DNA of 64,000 nucleotides from Gimesia sp. (GTDB lineage: Bacteria; Planctomycetota; Planctomycetia; Planctomycetales; Planctomycetaceae), in assembly GCA_002706765.1 (NCBI GenBank), contig PAJV01000006.1:2947-66946 (forward strand). Reading direction: 5' to 3'. Both the position numbers and the translations under genes were made by a program. The notes under the pieces are model-generated. The model ran no database searches, had not been told where the DNA came from, and was given only the letters and a program-made list of their open reading frames with translations. This document shows positions 34,342 to 45,451 of the stretch, piece after piece. Every line of letters starts with the position of its first letter. Position 1 is the stretch's first letter.

Positions 34342-35958
34342 TCAGTTTTCGGCGTTCTGGTCATCACTGCTTGTGATGTTGACCGGAAACAATGGTAACA
34401 GGGTTTCTTCGACCAGCGAAGCCGGGGAAATACCTGTTACCAGAAACAGCAGTAGCGTGGGGGCAAATGCCAGGCAGGCGAAGAGCCGGTGCTCCTGGTC
34501 GGGTTCCGGTGCGTTTTCCTGAGGCACTGGACTGTCTGCAGCAGTAGCGTTCATCAGTTGCCAGAATCCGCGAATCAATGCCAGTTGAAACAACAGGTGA
34601 CCTGCCATATAAAGCAATGCCAGCAGCAGGTTGTCCTGTGCCAGGTTCCATAAAAAGGCAAACTGTACTGTAAAACCACCCAGCCCGGGGAGCCCTGCCA
34701 GTGTGAGAATTAAAAAACCGGCCACCCACAACAGCAGTCGATGGGGATTTTCGGTGACTTTTTGTGAAAGTACCGGGATCACCAGCAGCAACAGGCAACA
34801 TGCCAGCCCCTGAATCACATTCAAAAAAGTCAAATTCGCAAGCGTGGCAGGATCTGCAGCGGACAGCAAAGTGAGCGTTAATGCGGACTGACCCAGCAGG
34901 TAGCAGAGGATGCTCTGCACCAGGCCCCCGCGGCTTGCCAGCAGAGACAGGTACAGAAAACCACACATTCCCCAGAAGCTGATCACCGTTGAGATGCTCT
35001 GCACAGCCGAATGATTTAAGGGGATTATAAATCGCAGCACACCATACATGCTGATTTTGGTGAATAAAGCCAGCAGGACCAGGCACCAGATCGTCTGACC
35101 GGGCGTATTCAAAGTAGAACCAGAATCCTGTTTGATCCATTGGGTTAGACTGTAGTGGACCGGGAAGATGGCCCCTTTGATAGTGAAACCTGTGATCAGA
35201 ATCAAAAAAATCCAGGGAGAGATCGTGCTCCAGTAGGTTTCTGCCAGTGGAAACAACGCGACATCATTTACGGTACCTTGAAGAATTTCATGAAACTGAT
35301 ATGAGACAGGCTGGGGTGTTTCCAGCAGCAGACCCTGCATTCGGGTATAACCGGTTGAAGCCAGTAACAGTCCGGCAATAATGAATGCATCTCCCAGGAA
35401 CTGCAGATACATGGTGCTTTCCAGCAGACGGATCGAGCGCGAACCGCTCCAGATACGAACCAGGCAGAGCATGCAGATAGTGGATGCCAGCAGGAAGGTG
35501 GCAAAGCTGACCAGGTCATAAGACACAAACACTCCCGCCAGAAAAGACTGCAGAAGCAGCAACAGAAAATAATGCCCTCTTGATTCCACTCCCCTGCGCC
35601 GGGAAAGCAGGATCAGCACCGGCCACAGACAGGTGGGCAGCAGCAGAAACCAGAGGGACACGCGGTCTATCGTCCATTGAAAACGACGCGGCGTTTCTCC
35701 CTCTGACTGATCCGTTTCGGCTGCAGGGAGTTTGAGAGTAATGGAAATGGCACGAGTGGGACTTTCCGCTTTCAACGCGGGAGCTGTCAGCACTGTGGCC
35801 AGAATCAGGCAGGAGATCAATGTATTGGAAAATGCGGTCCAGCGGTTGAACTCCAGGCCCAACTGGGAGATTCCCCAGCCAAAGCAGGCACCTGCAATCG
35901 GCATGACGATCAGCAGCGCAGGCGACAATGAGATCAGAGAGTTCAGAAACGAATTCAT
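34342..35958 (-). CDS. NuoM-like antiporter-type subunit of a complex I-like membrane module
   Basis: A 538-residue protein of about fourteen helices. The pattern of the proton-transporting NuoL/M/N family is clear in the middle: GFTIKGAIFPVHYSLTQWIK at 257-276 keeps the TM7 Lys (K261) and the following His (H268), and LFTKISMYGVLRF at 298-310 keeps the TM8 Lys (K301). GLPGLGGFTVQFAFL near 430 matches the GLPGLSGFVGEF block but with Glu changed to Gln. The TM5 Glu (in FxELM of NuoM) is not present; the matching place reads FLLAST. It is the last gene of a six-gene cluster. The ATG at 35958 is preferred over the TTG at 35976. A working ion channel is uncertain. Confidence 0.8.
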   Translation of the reverse strand: MNSFLNSLISLSPALLIVMPIAGACFGWGISQLGLEFNRWTAFSNTLISCLILATVLTAPALKAESPTRAISITLKLPAAETDQSEGETPRRFQWTIDRVSLWFLLLPTCLWPVLILLSRRRGVESRGHYFLLLLLQSFLAGVFVSYDLVSFATFLLASTICMLCLVRIWSGSRSIRLLESTMYLQFLGDAFIIAGLLLASTGYTRMQGLLLETPQPVSYQFHEILQGTVNDVALFPLAETYWSTISPWIFLILITGFTIKGAIFPVHYSLTQWIKQDSGSTLNTPGQTIWCLVLLALFTKISMYGVLRFIIPLNHSAVQSISTVISFWGMCGFLYLSLLASRGGLVQSILCYLLGQSALTLTLLSAADPATLANLTFLNVIQGLACCLLLLVIPVLSQKVTENPHRLLLWVAGFLILTLAGLPGLGGFTVQFAFLWNLAQDNLLLALLYMAGHLLFQLALIRGFWQLMNATAADSPVPQENAPEPDQEHRLFACLAFAPTLLLFLVTGISPASLVEETLLPLFPVNITSSDDQNAEN

Positions 35959-36108
35959 ACAGGACTCAAAATACAAAGCTAAGTAACGACTAGAGAAAAC
36001 AGTATCAGGCTAGAGCCACGAGCGCATCACATTTAACCATAGCGTCTCTCCATCTAGGATACTCGGACCAGATGGCCCTGGAGACGCCACAGTAAAACTG
36101 GACACAGT

Positions 36109-37983
36109 CTAAATCTGCAGAACCATCAGTACGAAGATGAGGATCGATAACGTAAAGATCAGAACCAGAGTCGGGAAGGCTGTCTGTCCGTTTTGCATAT
36201 GACTTAACAGCTGTCCCCAGAACCGGGGCAGTTTCTCCAGTGTGCTGCGACTTAGTACTCCTGTCAGCCAGCTATCAAGAAAGGTCACGCTTTTAACCAG
36301 CAATTGCGCCGGTTGAATTACTGCGCGACTCAGAAGATCCAACGCATGGTAATGCGTCTCCCCCAGATGCAGCAGACTGGAAGCCGCGCGTTGCGTTCTT
36401 GCTGCTCTGTTTCTGGGAGCCGTCATCCAAGCCAGGATTAACGCTACCAGTACGGCTAGAAAATAAAACGAACAGAACAGCCAGTCACGATCAAAAGGAC
36501 CCGGTCCCGAACTGATCAGCGGGGACTGCCAGAACTGGGGTACGAATGGCAGCGGGAACAGCGTGACAGCCGTCAACAGGCAGACCAGTCCGGTGGTGAT
36601 CCAGAGCAGGAAGCGGGGAAAAGGGCTGCTGGAATTGATAACTGTCTGCCGGGACAATGCGAAATAAAAGCGGGTCAGTCCAAAGAGATAAACCCCAACC
36701 AGGGGCAGTATCAGCCAGAGGAGAACCTCATTCCGTAACCCGGGAGAGGTCGCGCGTGCTGTAATCAGAGGATTGAGTAAGCCTCCCAGATTGATGATGA
36801 CTGCGGTCAGCAGCAGAAGCAGGCACACTCGTAATGCAGGCAGACTGGCGGCGGGAATTGCCTGCTCTCGTTGCCAGCAGACCAGCGACAGGAGAAGCGA
36901 CAAGACACAGGTTTGCACCACGATCACTGGCAGCAGATCCGTGATGCTCTCCAAACCGTTGAAGCCCAGCGTGGCAACGATGATTCCCGTCAGAGTGGCT
37001 GCCAGCCAGTTTAAACATCGATCCCATGCTTCACGTCTCATCAGGCAGCAGGCGGAAAAGCCCGTGAGGAATGCGGAGACCATCGCCAGTTGAGAGACTA
37101 AGGTCCGTGTCGCGTCAATCGTCAATAACAGGGGGGCACAGCGTATTAATAAAAATAATCCTGCAGGCATCGCCAGCAGGTTCAGCGCTGCCAGTGAGAG
37201 AGCGGGCCAGGGGCGGGGATTGCTGATCACCAATGCAGACGCAGGAAACAATCCCAGGCGAGGCACTGCTGCCAGAAAGAGTGTGACTCCTATGCCGGGT
37301 AAGGCGACACGGTTTTGTATATGAACTGCCTGGATCGCAGCAGGCTGTAATGTTTTCAAAAAATCCAGAGAGGAAAAACTGGAATGTATCAGAAATACAG
37401 TCAGCAGGAGCATCGCATCAGAAAATGCACTCCAGCCCCACCAGTGTCGATGGACCGGTTCTGCTGCCGACGAACTCTGAAAATTCACTTCATGCAGCAG
37501 ATTCAGATTGATTGAGAGAATCATCCAAAAGAAAAACAGTTCCAGGAAATTGGCCGACAGTACAACTCCGATCGCGGCACTGAATCCGAACAGATACAGC
37601 GGCCACGAATAACGGCGGTCGGAAACAAATTCGTTACCAGATTTCGGCCGTAATAGCAGGAAAAATAACGAAGCCAGTGAAATTAATCCATAGAATGCCA
37701 GGCTCACCGGATCGAACAAAACATCGATCTGTAGTTGAGGATCCCCCTCCCCTGCAAGGGGCAGCCAGTTCAGCAATCTCAGCGAATAAGCCTGCTGCGT
37801 AAGGCGGGAACCGAAAAAACAGAGACAGGTCACCGAGACGAGTGAAGTCAGAGCAACACTAGTCACTATCAGCCAGCGCGGATTGCCTCTCAACAGGCCA
37901 TAGGTTACCAGCGCAGCAATCAGCAGCATCACAAACGGTGTGATCAGACTTAATTGCAGCAGCACTGTGGTTATTTTATCCAC
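36109..37983 (-). CDS. NuoL-like subunit with degenerate proton-channel residues
   Basis: A 624-residue, roughly fifteen-helix protein. Length and helix order match NuoL, including a C-terminal extension with a helix (residues 520-624) that in NuoL includes the lateral arm. Around residues 145-160 the place of the conserved W-E pair reads FFFWMILS, so Glu is Met. The stretch LAAVPRLGLFPAS at 238-250 replaces GAVGKSAQLPL, so the key Lys becomes Arg242, and LAALNLLAM (264-272) replaces the LIHAATM block, with His to Asn268. These are the residues most needed for proton translocation in complex I. The start overlaps the end of the upstream NuoK-like gene by eight bases. Confidence 0.8.
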   Translation of the reverse strand: MDKITTVLLQLSLITPFVMLLIAALVTYGLLRGNPRWLIVTSVALTSLVSVTCLCFFGSRLTQQAYSLRLLNWLPLAGEGDPQLQIDVLFDPVSLAFYGLISLASLFFLLLRPKSGNEFVSDRRYSWPLYLFGFSAAIGVVLSANFLELFFFWMILSINLNLLHEVNFQSSSAAEPVHRHWWGWSAFSDAMLLLTVFLIHSSFSSLDFLKTLQPAAIQAVHIQNRVALPGIGVTLFLAAVPRLGLFPASALVISNPRPWPALSLAALNLLAMPAGLFLLIRCAPLLLTIDATRTLVSQLAMVSAFLTGFSACCLMRREAWDRCLNWLAATLTGIIVATLGFNGLESITDLLPVIVVQTCVLSLLLSLVCWQREQAIPAASLPALRVCLLLLLTAVIINLGGLLNPLITARATSPGLRNEVLLWLILPLVGVYLFGLTRFYFALSRQTVINSSSPFPRFLLWITTGLVCLLTAVTLFPLPFVPQFWQSPLISSGPGPFDRDWLFCSFYFLAVLVALILAWMTAPRNRAARTQRAASSLLHLGETHYHALDLLSRAVIQPAQLLVKSVTFLDSWLTGVLSRSTLEKLPRFWGQLLSHMQNGQTAFPTLVLIFTLSILIFVLMVLQI

Positions 37984-38344
37984 CAGAGTCTGCTCCCTGA
38001 TCAGAAAAGGTGCGATACGGCGACTCGGCCTCTGATACTTCTTCCCGTTCCATCTGCGGCAACTCTCGTGACCGACGCGATTGAATAATCAGGAATGTCA
38101 GCATGCTCAACAGCGGCAACAGAAACAGGACGATGATCAGAAAGAAAAGATTACCGTTCCACGCACCCCGCGACTGACCATCTGCGGCACAGATCAGACC
38201 GGCTCCCTGCAGCCAGAGCAGTAAAGAGAAGACCATGGAAAAGGCATTCCGCTGCAGGAGCATGCCCAGGAAACCCAATGCGATCAGGAGTACCGCAACC
38301 AGAAATTGATTGTGTAGCAGGGCAACCGAAGTCAGTAGAATCAT
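37976..38344 (-). CDS. NuoK-like small membrane subunit lacking the conserved glutamates
   Basis: A 122-residue protein with three transmembrane helices and a charged C-terminal tail. Helix spacing and the RNAFSMVFSLLLWLQGAGLI segment correspond to the NuoK pattern [20 protein letters not shown]. In NuoK two buried Glu residues on helices 2 and 3 carry protons. Here the first lies at a Leu (about residue 42), and the third helix LFFLIIVLFLLPLLSMLTF has no acidic residue. It shares four bases with the upstream gene (ATGA) and eight with the NuoL-like gene, so all three are tightly coupled. Confidence 0.75.
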   Translation of the reverse strand: MILLTSVALLHNQFLVAVLLIALGFLGMLLQRNAFSMVFSLLLWLQGAGLICAADGQSRGAWNGNLFFLIIVLFLLPLLSMLTFLIIQSRRSRELPQMEREEVSEAESPYRTFSDQGADSGG

Positions 38345-39102
38345 GGTCTGCCTCCCCGTTCATCAGAAATGAAACGCGTGATTCCCACAAAGCTGATCAG
38401 CACAAATAAGAGCAACACGATCAAAGTCGGCCAATGATCCGTTAACAGTTGTCTTACCAGCAGCAGACTTTCCACCTCGACGGCAGCAGGCTCGGGTCTC
38501 AGTCTGGTCGTGGGACCCCACTCACGATGGATCACCCACAGAAAACCACACAACAGCAGGCCACAAGACAGGCAGGCCAGGAAGGGCTCACGAAACGGTC
38601 CTTCCGGGTCAGCATCCTCTGCCGATGATTGCTGGATGGAAATTCCTCGAAAGACCATCAGCAACAGCATCCCCCCCGCCGTCAGCCAGCAGAGCAGAAC
38701 CAGGGGCAGGATGTCAGCCTGCAGTAACAGCATCCCGCTGCCGAGGAATGAAATCGCAGCCGCTGTCAGAGACCATTGTAAATCGGAAGACAATACCGCT
38801 GCTCCTCCGAAACCGATCACGAGCAAACCGACAAGGAATGGACTAAACTGCGCGATCAGCGCCGGGATGCCGCTCTGACCTTCTGCAAAGATTGGTTGCC
38901 CGAACCAGTAAAAGAAAATGCAGACTGATAACAGAGACAGCGCGGGCCAGCCCCAATGCAGCTTCGTCGCCTCCATTCTCTGATGAGTCTGCAGATTCAG
39001 ATATCCATAGATGCCCGTAATCATCAACAGCACCAGCACCACCATTGTCATAAACAACAGGTTGTCACCCGTGCCAGGCAGATAAAATCTCAAGTCATCC
39101 AT
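38341..39102 (-). CDS. NuoJ-like membrane subunit
   Basis: A 253-residue polytopic protein. Its middle, about residues 90-150, follows NuoJ in pattern: FGGAAVLSSDLQWSLTAAA and ADILPLVLLCWLTAGGMLLLMV resemble the NuoJ segments with a pi-bulge helix. NuoJ usually has about 170-200 residues, so this one is extended at the N-terminus by about 60 residues and two helices. The assignment rests on pattern and gene order (J before K before L) rather than strong motifs. It starts 33 bases after the NuoH-like gene and overlaps the NuoK-like gene by four bases. Confidence 0.65.
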   Translation of the reverse strand: MDDLRFYLPGTGDNLLFMTMVVLVLLMITGIYGYLNLQTHQRMEATKLHWGWPALSLLSVCIFFYWFGQPIFAEGQSGIPALIAQFSPFLVGLLVIGFGGAAVLSSDLQWSLTAAAISFLGSGMLLLQADILPLVLLCWLTAGGMLLLMVFRGISIQQSSAEDADPEGPFREPFLACLSCGLLLCGFLWVIHREWGPTTRLRPEPAAVEVESLLLVRQLLTDHWPTLIVLLLFVLISFVGITRFISDERGGRP

Positions 39103-39135
39103 TCTATATCTGATCTAAAAATAAGAGGAATCAAA

Positions 39136-40146
39136 TCAGTTTTTCACGGTCGTCGTCGATGGGAGACTGGCTTTCGGCAGCAGAAATCCGGCCCACATCG
39201 CCAGCAGGCTGAAGTTCAGCAGCACATGCATCAGGGGATCTGACATCCCCAATACATGAAAGGCAACAAATGAAGCCGTTAATGAAATCAATGCCAGCCA
39301 CAGCGTCAACTTCCACAGACGTTCCGGGTCAAAGCCACTGCGTTTCTGGAGAAAGACCTTCAGCCGCAGTATAATGACCAGTAAAACCAGAATCGTCACT
39401 ACCTGGATTGTCATTCTTCCGATTTCCAACCCGGCACTCTTCTCGATCAAAGGAAAAAAACAGCTGCGACTGATGATGAGCGGCACCAGGACCAGCAGTC
39501 CGATCAGCATTCGCAACTCGCGAATCCAGTTTTGCACCGGGCTCACCCGGCGATCAGGACAGGCGTTGATCAGCAAATAAGGTCCAGTCCAGGCAAGAAA
39601 AAATCCGAGAGTTCCTGCAGGTTGTAAGACACTCAGCCAGAGTGAAGTGTGGCCACCCTGCGCTGCATGACTGGAATAGATCGGTACATAAGCAATAACT
39701 GCGGCCCAGGCGAGTAACAGGGGCAGCCAGAAATAACCATTCAGTATCAGCGAAATCGAGGGAATCCGTCGCCGCTCCGTGACTGCCAGGCTGACCTCAC
39801 CGGCGATCTGCAGCAGCGTGAACAGCCCCAGAAGAAGCAGGGGGCCAAAGCGACTCGTCATCAGCGCCGCTTCGGTGGCTGCTTCATCAGTGTGCATGCT
39901 GCTATGAGTATAAATCAGAGGCACCAGACTGAATGTCAACAGGCTGCACAGCAGCGAGAACAACAGCAGGCACCGTTCTGATCGATTTCGCAATCGGTTC
40001 TGCGCGTGAGAAATCCGCCTGACAGAGCAGATGACTTGCGCTTTGAAACCCGTTTCAGTCAGGGGATAGGCAGTCTCCGCCAGCCTGAATGAGAGTATCA
40101 GGATTCCTGGCAACAGCAGAACCAGAATCAGCAGTGGCACCGCCAT
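39136..40146 (-). CDS. NuoH-like membrane subunit with degenerate quinone-site signature
   Basis: A 336-residue protein with eight or nine helices. Two regions match NuoH: VLQPAGTLGFFLAWTGPYLL at about 172-191, corresponding to the QPLGFLVFLIA segment, and RSGFDPERLWKLTLWLALISL near residue 288, corresponding to the C-terminal RYDQLMxLGWKxLLPLAL block. Between them NuoH carries ExNRxPFDLPE, which helps form the quinone chamber; here the place reads INACPDRRVSP, so this signature is lost. Its ATG overlaps the stop of the preceding gene (TGATG), so translation is coupled. The call as NuoH is by pattern and order. Confidence 0.65.
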   Translation of the reverse strand: MAVPLLILVLLLPGILILSFRLAETAYPLTETGFKAQVICSVRRISHAQNRLRNRSERCLLLFSLLCSLLTFSLVPLIYTHSSMHTDEAATEAALMTSRFGPLLLLGLFTLLQIAGEVSLAVTERRRIPSISLILNGYFWLPLLLAWAAVIAYVPIYSSHAAQGGHTSLWLSVLQPAGTLGFFLAWTGPYLLINACPDRRVSPVQNWIRELRMLIGLLVLVPLIISRSCFFPLIEKSAGLEIGRMTIQVVTILVLLVIILRLKVFLQKRSGFDPERLWKLTLWLALISLTASFVAFHVLGMSDPLMHVLLNFSLLAMWAGFLLPKASLPSTTTVKN

Positions 40147-40589
40147 CAGGAACGCTCCTCAAATTCTGGTGTGCGCGTGATGACTGATTCGTCAGTGGCT
40201 GGACTCTCACAGTGAGCAGCGAAACCCGAGAGAGGTGAACCTGACGCTTGCTCTCTGAAGGACAGCATACCGGTCCAGAACGCCATTCCCCAGATCAGCA
40301 GCATTCCACCGGCGAGTGTCATCGTCACCGGGTGATTCCAGGCTGCAGTCTGCATGGTGATCCCCAACACCAGCAGCAGCGCTGGCACAACAATCAAGAC
40401 TGCGGTAAAATTCCAGTACAGTTGCCGCTCTGTTTCTGTTCGAGAAAACTTGTCAACCCGTACCGTGGGTTCCGGGGGGACCTCCTCCATGTCTGGAGAA
40501 CTGCGAAATCCGATTTTGATCGTGAACCACACAGCCAGTGTGCAGCCGACGGCGAACAGAAAATATTTCAGAAAGAAAAACCAATCCAT
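40146..40589 (-). CDS. Small membrane protein, first gene of the complex I-like cluster
   Basis: A 147-residue protein with three transmembrane segments (about 7-27, 60-80, 87-110), the number and spacing of NuoA. The loop between helices 1 and 2 lacks the conserved cysteine and the acidic motifs of NuoA, so I do not assign it to that family. It carries a 35-residue polar tail. It leads the cluster with a 1-base stop-start overlap to the NuoH-like gene and is separated from the divergent gamma-glutamylcyclotransferase-like gene by 232 bases, which must contain the operon promoter. Confidence 0.65.
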   Translation of the reverse strand: MDWFFFLKYFLFAVGCTLAVWFTIKIGFRSSPDMEEVPPEPTVRVDKFSRTETERQLYWNFTAVLIVVPALLLVLGITMQTAAWNHPVTMTLAGGMLLIWGMAFWTGMLSFREQASGSPLSGFAAHCESPATDESVITRTPEFEERS

Positions 40590-44464: not shown

Positions 44465-45451
44465 TCAAGGAGTCGGCTGCAAAACACCAATCAACCGCTC
44501 GACTTCTCGATCAAATACGGCAGGGTCACTTTCGTTTTCCTGGAAATCAGCGGCGACTCGATTGCAGAGTGTTTCTTTCTGCTGATGCTCCCAATCGTTA
44601 AACAGATGCTGATCCAGATTCAGAGGCAGCAGCGAATGTATCACGTTGGTATCCCGTTTAAATTCACGGTCTTCGTTATCAAACGCGCGTTCAATTTCCA
44701 GGTCAACCCAGTCGCTCTGCAGGGAATACTGGGAAGCACACAGCAGCACCTTATCCAGGATCTTCATACCCCGTTTGATGGGGGTTCCCGCCGCGTGCTG
44801 GGTCTGTTTTTCATCCAGCCAGCAGCGAATACCCCGCGCTTGCAGAGCAGCGTAGAGTCGCTCTGCAAAGGCAGCATCTTCCGGGCTGTAACAGATGAAA
44901 CACGAAAAGAATTCCAGGGCCGTCTGTTCGAAATGCCCGGCGATGTATTCAATCAACTCATCCGAAAGTCCACAGCCTCGCAGAAACTGGCTGGGAATAT
45001 GCCCTTTGGAACTCATCAGCGTATCCATGCCCAGCGTGCTGGGACCCCAGTGTGAAACCGTTTCCAGGTTCACAGCACGGGACAGATCGACGTTCACCCA
45101 CAGCGTGTTTTGAGAACGTGCCCCGTTAAAATCGACTTCGCGCAGATTGGAGCCGTGAAAATTAACCCAGCTCAAATCCGTATTACACAAATCCGCAAAG
45201 CACAGGTCGGCTTTTTCCAGGTTGGCTCCGGCGAGATTCGCTCCCACCAGGTCGGCACCGCTCAGGTCAGCTCCGATTAGAATTGCACCACTGAGATCCG
45301 CGCCCACCAGATTCGTTTCTGTCAGGTCAGCACCGCTCAGGTCAGCACCGCTCAAATCGGGTTTGACATCCGGGTTCTCTGTCCGCCAGCGATCAATCGA
45401 TACAGCGCCGGTTCGAAACACATCTACATATTCAGGATTCGCCACAACCAC
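44465..45451 (-). CDS. Pentapeptide-repeat protein with C-terminal TIR domain
   Basis: A 328-residue two-domain protein. Residues about 31-125 are A(D/N)LxG pentapeptide repeats (many copies of DLSGA), forming a right-handed beta-helix. A linker with [12 protein letters not shown] leads to a TIR domain at about 181-320: [11 protein letters not shown] is box 1, GIRCWLDEK follows, and [11 protein letters not shown] supplies Trp248 and the catalytic Glu252 of NAD-cleaving TIRs. Bacterial TIR domains usually hydrolyse NAD or make cyclic ADP-ribose signals in anti-phage defence. Here the pentapeptide domain may sense or scaffold. The gene is alone, with no recognised partner gene next to it. Conservation of the Glu suggests an active enzyme (inference). 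Confidence 0.9.

Follow-up and report, generated by a model that had tools for sequence, protein, structure and literature searches.

An orphan membrane arm resembling that of complex I in Gimesia, with no redox genes found beside it

The operon and its distant seventh gene

This analysis concerns a group of genes resembling the membrane arm of respiratory complex I, found in a 64-kb stretch of a Gimesia genome (G000); the whole stretch is called the window below, and the genus was sampled through 17 Gimesia genomes. At 34342..40589 on the minus strand, six co-directional open reading frames (ORFs) form a tight operon. Read from 40589 downwards, it consists of A (in the position of NuoA), NuoH, J, K, L, and M, with ORF lengths of 147, 336, 253, 122, 624, and 544 amino acids, respectively. 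A first-pass annotation had described here a membrane arm of the complex I type that lacks the redox half and has lost most residues of the proton path, and this core reading is supported by the results given below. The genes and the grounds for naming them are as follows:

40146..40589, minus strand: A, a 147-residue three-helix protein in the NuoA position (ORF, position before H, predicted helices)
39136..40146, minus strand: H, a 336-residue NuoH-type protein without the quinone-site loop (Foldseek, gene order, weak hhalign)
38341..39102, minus strand: J, a 253-residue NuoJ-like protein (hhalign to canonical NuoJ, gene order)
37976..38344, minus strand: K, a 122-residue NuoK-like protein that has lost both Glu (PF00420, PDB NuoK chains, alignment)
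36109..37983, minus strand: L, a 624-residue NuoL-like protein with Arg242 and Asp189 at the places of Lys229 and Asp178 (TIGR01974, hhalign, own profile models, alignment)
34342..35958, minus strand: M, a NuoM-like protein whose ORF may begin at 35976 (TIGR01972, hhalign, PDB NuoM, own profile models, alignment)

The ORFs overlap by 1 base (A/H), 4 bases (J/K), and 8 bases (K/L). The start of NuoM is probably the ATG at 35958 and not the TTG at 35976, because relatives have the same start.

K, L, and M are clearly members of the complex I membrane set. The M-like ORF matches TIGR01972 (2.4e-23) and the L-like ORF TIGR01974 (7e-16), both with scores far under the NCBIfam cut-off, and the K-like ORF matches PF00420 above the cut-off (4.1e-7). 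With subunit hidden Markov models (HMMs) built from E. coli and canonical members of the family to which Gimesia belongs, the L-like ORF matches L alone (49 bits), and the M-like ORF matches M at 70 bits, its 4 bits with N being not significant. According to hhalign, M corresponds to canonical NuoM with a probability of 99.6% and L to canonical NuoL with 99.3%, nearly over the full length. Among PDB sequences, M finds NuoM (2e-13) and K finds NuoK chains (best 2.3e-6), whereas searches there with profiles of L, H, J, and A were negative.

The other three proteins have no meaningful match to curated models. J aligns weakly with canonical NuoJ (hhalign probability 34%, E 4e-4) and not with its counterpart in G017, a genome of another genus. 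H shows weak hhalign similarity to canonical NuoH and to that of another genus (g42); run against single G017 or canonical sequences, neither H nor A gave a match. An AlphaFold2 model of H (pLDDT, the per-residue confidence, 70.5; pTM, the overall confidence, 0.73) brought HycD to the top of a Foldseek search (7z0s_D/7z0t_D, probability 1.00/0.99, E 0.016/0.033), followed by E. coli NuoH (7nyh_H, 0.91, E 0.42) and mouse ND1 (0.51, E 1.7), with no match under E 0.001. Thus, H is predicted to fold like HycD/NuoH, at weak E-values. The model of A contains three helices at low confidence (pLDDT 54). A has no sequence match to NuoA and is identified with it by position only, as it precedes H in the same way as in the arms of G017, G061, G103, and G125. 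The membrane set is therefore made up of subunits recognised clearly (K, L, M), by fold (H), weakly (J), and by position (A), together with an N encoded on another contig.

This NuoN-like protein of 390 amino acids is encoded by a lone gene on contig C37 of G000, away from the operon. It matches the N profile alone (18 bits), as do four other Gimesia members (25-54 bits). Downstream lie genes read as kdgK and a sigma54-PAS regulator (L035 5033-7575, G000:C37). Membrane arms of the same kind, called orphan arms here, occur in other genera of the family, and in G103 and G125 (both of genus g42) the same kdgK (62% identical) and regulator (39%) follow the N of an A-H-J-K-L-M-N arm. In G088, kdgK (70% identical) follows the N of a J-K-L-M-N arm. 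A kdgK-like sugar kinase is thus found beside orphan NuoN in three genera (L035; L153, L154; L151) and the regulator in two. Given this shared flank, the simplest reading is that NuoN remained at the old site while the remaining arm genes moved; the two neighbours look like shared synteny rather than a functional association. In two more genera, orphan-arm NuoN also lies apart from K-L-M (G026:C51, L111, 7390-8985; G030:C49, L110, 6943-8529), so that NuoN may have become unlinked on more than one occasion.

The lone NuoN brings the membrane set to seven, with A counted on its position only. The six co-directional genes with overlapping ends listed by the first-pass annotation are confirmed, with profile matches for K, L, and M. 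Its six-gene set describes the locus itself, and has to be extended by the NuoN encoded outside the window. The small three-helix protein that it noted is present, with its three helices predicted at low confidence, and can now be placed in the NuoA position of a seven-gene set. Neither the curated models nor our own HMMs assigned the genes to unrelated membrane families.

Redox genes, residues, and selection

The hydrophilic half of complex I was sought at two levels. Genome-wide, NuoD (PF00346), NuoC (PF00329), and canonical NuoH (PF00146) were each found in 0/17 Gimesia genomes, the same models being positive in 11/14, 10/14, and 11/14 control genomes, respectively. PF00146 also misses the H of the operon, and its zero therefore concerns canonical NuoH alone. 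The NuoB-type model PF01058 has one match in each of 15/17 Gimesia genomes. In G000, its only match was rejected as NuoB, since it sits in a cluster read as NiFe-hydrogenase and hyp genes (G000:C18:66001-86000, L058, 1965-12327); the other 14 loci are unread. At the level of loci, a blastp search with ORFs of at least 60 amino acids from the window and 37 other loci returned no homologue of NuoB, C, D, E, F, G, or I, all seven of which were returned for the control locus L163; for NuoE, F, G, and I, this locus search was the only one, none being made genome-wide. The claim that the hydrophilic genes are absent from the window is thus borne out, and no nuoB-D-I homologues were found at the 37 other loci.

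In the family as a whole, NuoD was detected by PF00346 in 108/120 genomes, and 6 of the 12 negatives are Gimesia. The gene nqrB of Na+-NQR is present in 16/17 Gimesia genomes, the exception (G015) being 74% complete. Stieleria strain SV_7m_r is reported to lack NDH-1, with nuoL as the sole nuo gene found, and to rely on NQR, nqrA-F being present in all six genomes (PMC11588811).

The residues compared along the proton path are those of E. coli that we take to be functional, and the letters at these positions were checked in the alignment. Canonical NuoM, NuoL, and NuoN of the family retain nearly all of them, Lys217 of NuoN being Arg in two. In L of the operon, Glu144 of transmembrane helix 5 (TM5) is replaced by Met154 and Lys229 of TM7 by Arg242, Asp178 is kept as Asp189, and the helix His is lost. 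Arg242 and Asp189 occur in 15/15 Gimesia rows, and one Gimesia row has His at the place of His338. Arg at the Lys229 place is common to the five orphan arms tabulated first; G061 has Ala there, G103/G125 have Gly, and G089 has Phe. In M, Glu144 and Glu407 are lost, Lys234/Lys265 are kept as Lys261/Lys301, and Gln replaces His322 and His348. Lys261, Lys301, Asp190, Gln357, and Gln383 are present in 16/16 Gimesia rows. The site of Asp190 is Gly or Ser in 14/14 canonical rows and Asp in no other aligned orphan; from a comparison of the two subunits, it is taken to correspond to the place of Asp178 in NuoL.

The Glu pair of NuoK is complete in 6/6 canonical rows and in 0/8 orphan or Gimesia rows, the K of the operon lacking both Glu. 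NuoN keeps Glu133 in 5/5 Gimesia rows, with Arg or His at the Lys217 place. The PFDLPE quinone-site loop of NuoH (NRxPFDLPE) is absent in 15/15 Gimesia rows and is also lost in the g42 arms. Other residues of H (His297, Asp303, His307, and Asn311) and of J (Cys177, Cys180, and Cys185) are invariant in Gimesia, which for His297/Asp303/His307 and the three Cys was seen in 15/15 rows.

Most of what the first-pass annotation had read from the letters holds in the alignment, namely the lack of the TM5 Glu and the key Lys in L, of both buried Glu in K, and of NRxPFDLPE in H, as well as the two Lys retained by M, whose conservation it had proposed to check. It had also put Asn268 in the place of the LIHAATM His of L: the His is indeed lost, and the placement is one column off, the aligner showing Leu. 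That the proton-path residues are mostly lost is correct as such, and since the changes are fixed within the genus, "rearrangement" describes them better than plain loss.

Within Gimesia, NuoM was found in 17/17 genomes, the copy of G015 being a fragment at a contig end, and all six genes are intact in 15/17, at about 50% identity. In the other two (G007, G015), contigs end inside the operon, and H of G007 lies on another contig. The same hydrolase gene adjoins M in the seven other Gimesia loci with compared flanks. A profile of Gimesia H was positive in 14/14 Gimesia genomes and in 0/283 others drawn from the class, with at most seven candidates scored per genome.

Pairwise Ka/Ks (nonsynonymous over synonymous substitution rates, Nei-Gojobori, nine pairs per gene) ranges from 0.05 to 0.48 over 54 comparisons, with 31/54 values between 0.15 and 0.25 and the highest for A. 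For two flanking genes, it is 0.04-0.07 (four pairs each). Hence, the operon is under selection yet changes faster than its neighbours. No partner gene was found always beside the arm in loci of six genera. Outside the arm, the few matches between genera each connect two loci and resemble common domains, and a constant partner was rejected on these grounds.

Origin and spread in the family

In sister genera (G083, G070), complex I is encoded by a single 14-gene operon, A-B-C-D-E-F-G-H-I-J-K-L-M-N. The Gimesia arm set equals this operon minus all seven hydrophilic-subunit genes, and the A-H-J-K-L-M-N arm of G061, G103, and G125 equals it minus B to G and I. The H of these three genomes is still recognised as NuoH (E 4e-17 to 2e-23) and is without the stretch between the first helices and the PFDLPE...HTEY loop.

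For the family survey, 91 genomes were searched with orphan NuoM, and then the fetched loci and chosen further stretches were read. A degenerate NuoM was found in at least 17 non-Gimesia genomes of 14 genera, these counts being lower bounds, as many matches were left unread. In at least 12 of these genomes (10 genera), three or more arm subunits were seen, either together or split between two places. NuoM alone was detected in G112, G110, G069, and G022, and G060 is represented by a 3.5-kb contig. The candidate orphan of G082 was set aside as canonical.

In a NuoM tree of 44 rows, from which G060 was excluded, 16 orphans of 13 genera group with Gimesia in a single clade (100/100), which is nested within the canonical NuoM of the 14-gene operon type. 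In a smaller NuoL tree, Gimesia groups with five orphans (100/100). The branches are long, so that false attraction is possible in both trees; the NuoN tree is weak, and no conclusion was built on it. Canonical and orphan NuoM are both present in G017, G089, and G112, where the orphan is therefore a paralogue.

Two further observations were made on the way. In G036, two ORFs make up the NuoL-like gene of the orphan arm (L051 6839-8776), owing to a frameshift, decay, or an assembly fault. Moreover, several genomes of the family have a second complex I split over the chromosome, with NuoI-A-C-D in one place and NuoH to N in another (L077 and L113 in G020; G017:C1 at 1.79 and 3.08 Mb).

Possible roles and related systems

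There is little doubt that the Gimesia genes represent a complex I operon reduced to its membrane arm, its seven hydrophilic genes being gone, with A-H-J-K-L-M in the window and N at a second locus. It is also well supported that the arm was already present in a common ancestor of Gimesia and other genera of the family and that selection retains it in Gimesia. The arm is a derived variant and is not filed as complex I, because the defining features of the latter were tested and are lacking. By strong inference, it is no redox pump of a known type: the arm has neither a quinone module nor the NuoH loop that would contact one, and so cannot be powered by electron transfer in the way that complex I is.

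The fact that the membrane subunits have been retained points to continued assembly, and the seven proteins would then form a membrane complex not driven by electron transfer. Such a complex might conduct or exchange ions, either passively or in a controlled manner, along a rearranged polar axis comprising Asp189/Arg242 of L and Asp190/Lys261/Lys301 of M. Its action would bear some resemblance to that of a redox-free Mrp-type module and would not be that of a pump. That the rearranged charges of L and M are fixed in Gimesia speaks for a polar path in use. On this evidence, we tentatively favour a redox-free ion-conducting or antiport module as the role of the assembled arm, judging it nearly an even prospect. 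Several points weigh against it. The TM5 Glu, the helix His, and the TM12 residue lost from L and M make up most of the known proton path. No titratable position is common to all orphan arms of the family in the alignment, and transport is therefore unlikely as a common role across the family. The operon genes evolve three to four times faster than the two measured flanking genes. Finally, the 99% complete genome G034 shows no NuoD and no trace of the arm, which can therefore be lost.

A bolder and distinctly doubtful proposal is that a membrane arm has become, across the family, a free-standing device without electron transfer. In Gimesia, it would have acquired a new polar axis (a TM6 Asp and a TM7 base in L as well as in M, and Gln in place of His) and perhaps a new site for a metal or haem in H/J (His297/Asp303/His307; Cys177/180/185), which would make the arm a novel type of ion transporter or membrane device.

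A close rival of the ion-conducting module is a non-transporting membrane scaffold, in which fold and assembly are kept to organise the membrane or to hold another protein, and the polar residues are structural. The charges are not shared across the family, which argues for such a role: the fold and the subunit set stay constant while titratable residues vary between lineages, and selection is purifying but relaxed. However, the new and kept intrahelical charges are invariant in all Gimesia rows, more than a scaffold seems to need, and no partner gene was found. On balance, we consider the scaffold rather unlikely.

A complex coupled to an unlinked new redox partner, or to new cofactors, for example at Cys177/Cys180/Cys185 of J or His297/Asp303/His307 of H, would account for the invariance of these residues. 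It is improbable, since a comparison of loci from six genera showed no redox gene next to the arm, NuoH has lost its contact loop for the quinone module, and three Cys within one helix make no known site. Equally low is the probability that the arm is a relic, an abandoned paralogue in slow decay with no needed function. Its faster change relative to the neighbours, the family members in which NuoM alone was detected, and the two-ORF L gene of G036 would fit, but Ka/Ks is well below 1 in 54/54 comparisons, and six open frames are kept in 15/17 genomes at about 50% identity. The last alternative, an ordinary complex I with its hydrophilic genes elsewhere in the genome, has a precedent in the split operons of the family (G020) but is highly improbable given the NuoD and NuoC zeros with positive controls, the NiFe-hydrogenase setting of the G000 NuoB-model match, and the lost proton-path residues and quinone loop, and it was rejected at the sensitivity of the models used, which for NuoE, F, G, and I included no genome-wide search.

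The arm can also be compared with known systems. With complex I (NDH-1) as encoded in G083/G070, the arm shares the gene order if B to G and I are disregarded, and its likeness rests on profiles for L, M, and K and on fold for H. It differs in that no quinone- or NADH-module genes were found here and in that the proton-path residues are lost or rearranged and the NuoH loop is lost. A complex I of 11 subunits without NuoEFG is a form that has shed a hydrophilic module, and a 2024 study reportedly concerns such a complex. It retains NuoB, C, D, and I, whereas here NuoC and NuoD were also not found. The Mrp cation/proton antiporter is a redox-free membrane complex with NuoL/NuoM/NuoK-type subunits, in which Glu/Lys pairs are essential. 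The arm likewise combines these subunit types with no redox subunits found; unlike Mrp, it also has H, J, and A types and NuoN, and its Glu/Lys pairs are changed. No mrp genes were recognised on reading the window ORFs, no Mrp profile having been run over the neighbours. In formate hydrogenlyase and group 4 hydrogenases, a NiFe large subunit is encoded beside the membrane genes, whereas the window has no NuoD-type (NuoCD-related) homologue, and the NiFe genes of G000 lie on another contig than the arm. That the operon is no normal complex I, Mrp, or formate hydrogenlyase cluster, as first proposed, therefore agrees with its residues, its neighbours, and the missing quinone-module genes.

To our knowledge, known reductions of complex I drop the NADH module and keep the quinone module. 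Here, no redox gene was found, yet the membrane subunits persist under selection in Gimesia, and arms of at least three subunits occur in at least 10 further genera. An old question, what an antiporter-like arm does without a driver, thus becomes testable, and arms ranging from nearly canonical to extreme represent a natural mutagenesis of the proton path. No description of an orphan membrane arm of this kind was found in the literature searched, which left subscription journals mostly outside. A survey reports 2,171 species with incomplete complex I, and the words "planctomycet", "membrane arm", and "orphan" have 0 occurrences in its main text (PMC12361115).

Two minor observations concern other loci. 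The DAB inorganic-carbon transporter (DabA/DabB) also uses a NuoL-type subunit without complex I redox subunits. No DabA-like gene is present among the window ORFs read; a separate DAB-like locus of G000 (G000:C68:80001-100000, L034, 6637-14397) contains NuoL-like and NuoM/N-like genes, a 1041-residue protein that is presumably DabA-like, and a carbonic anhydrase-like gene nearby. Within the window, an ORF at 44465-45451 on the minus strand encodes pentapeptide repeats followed by what appears by eye to be a TIR domain.

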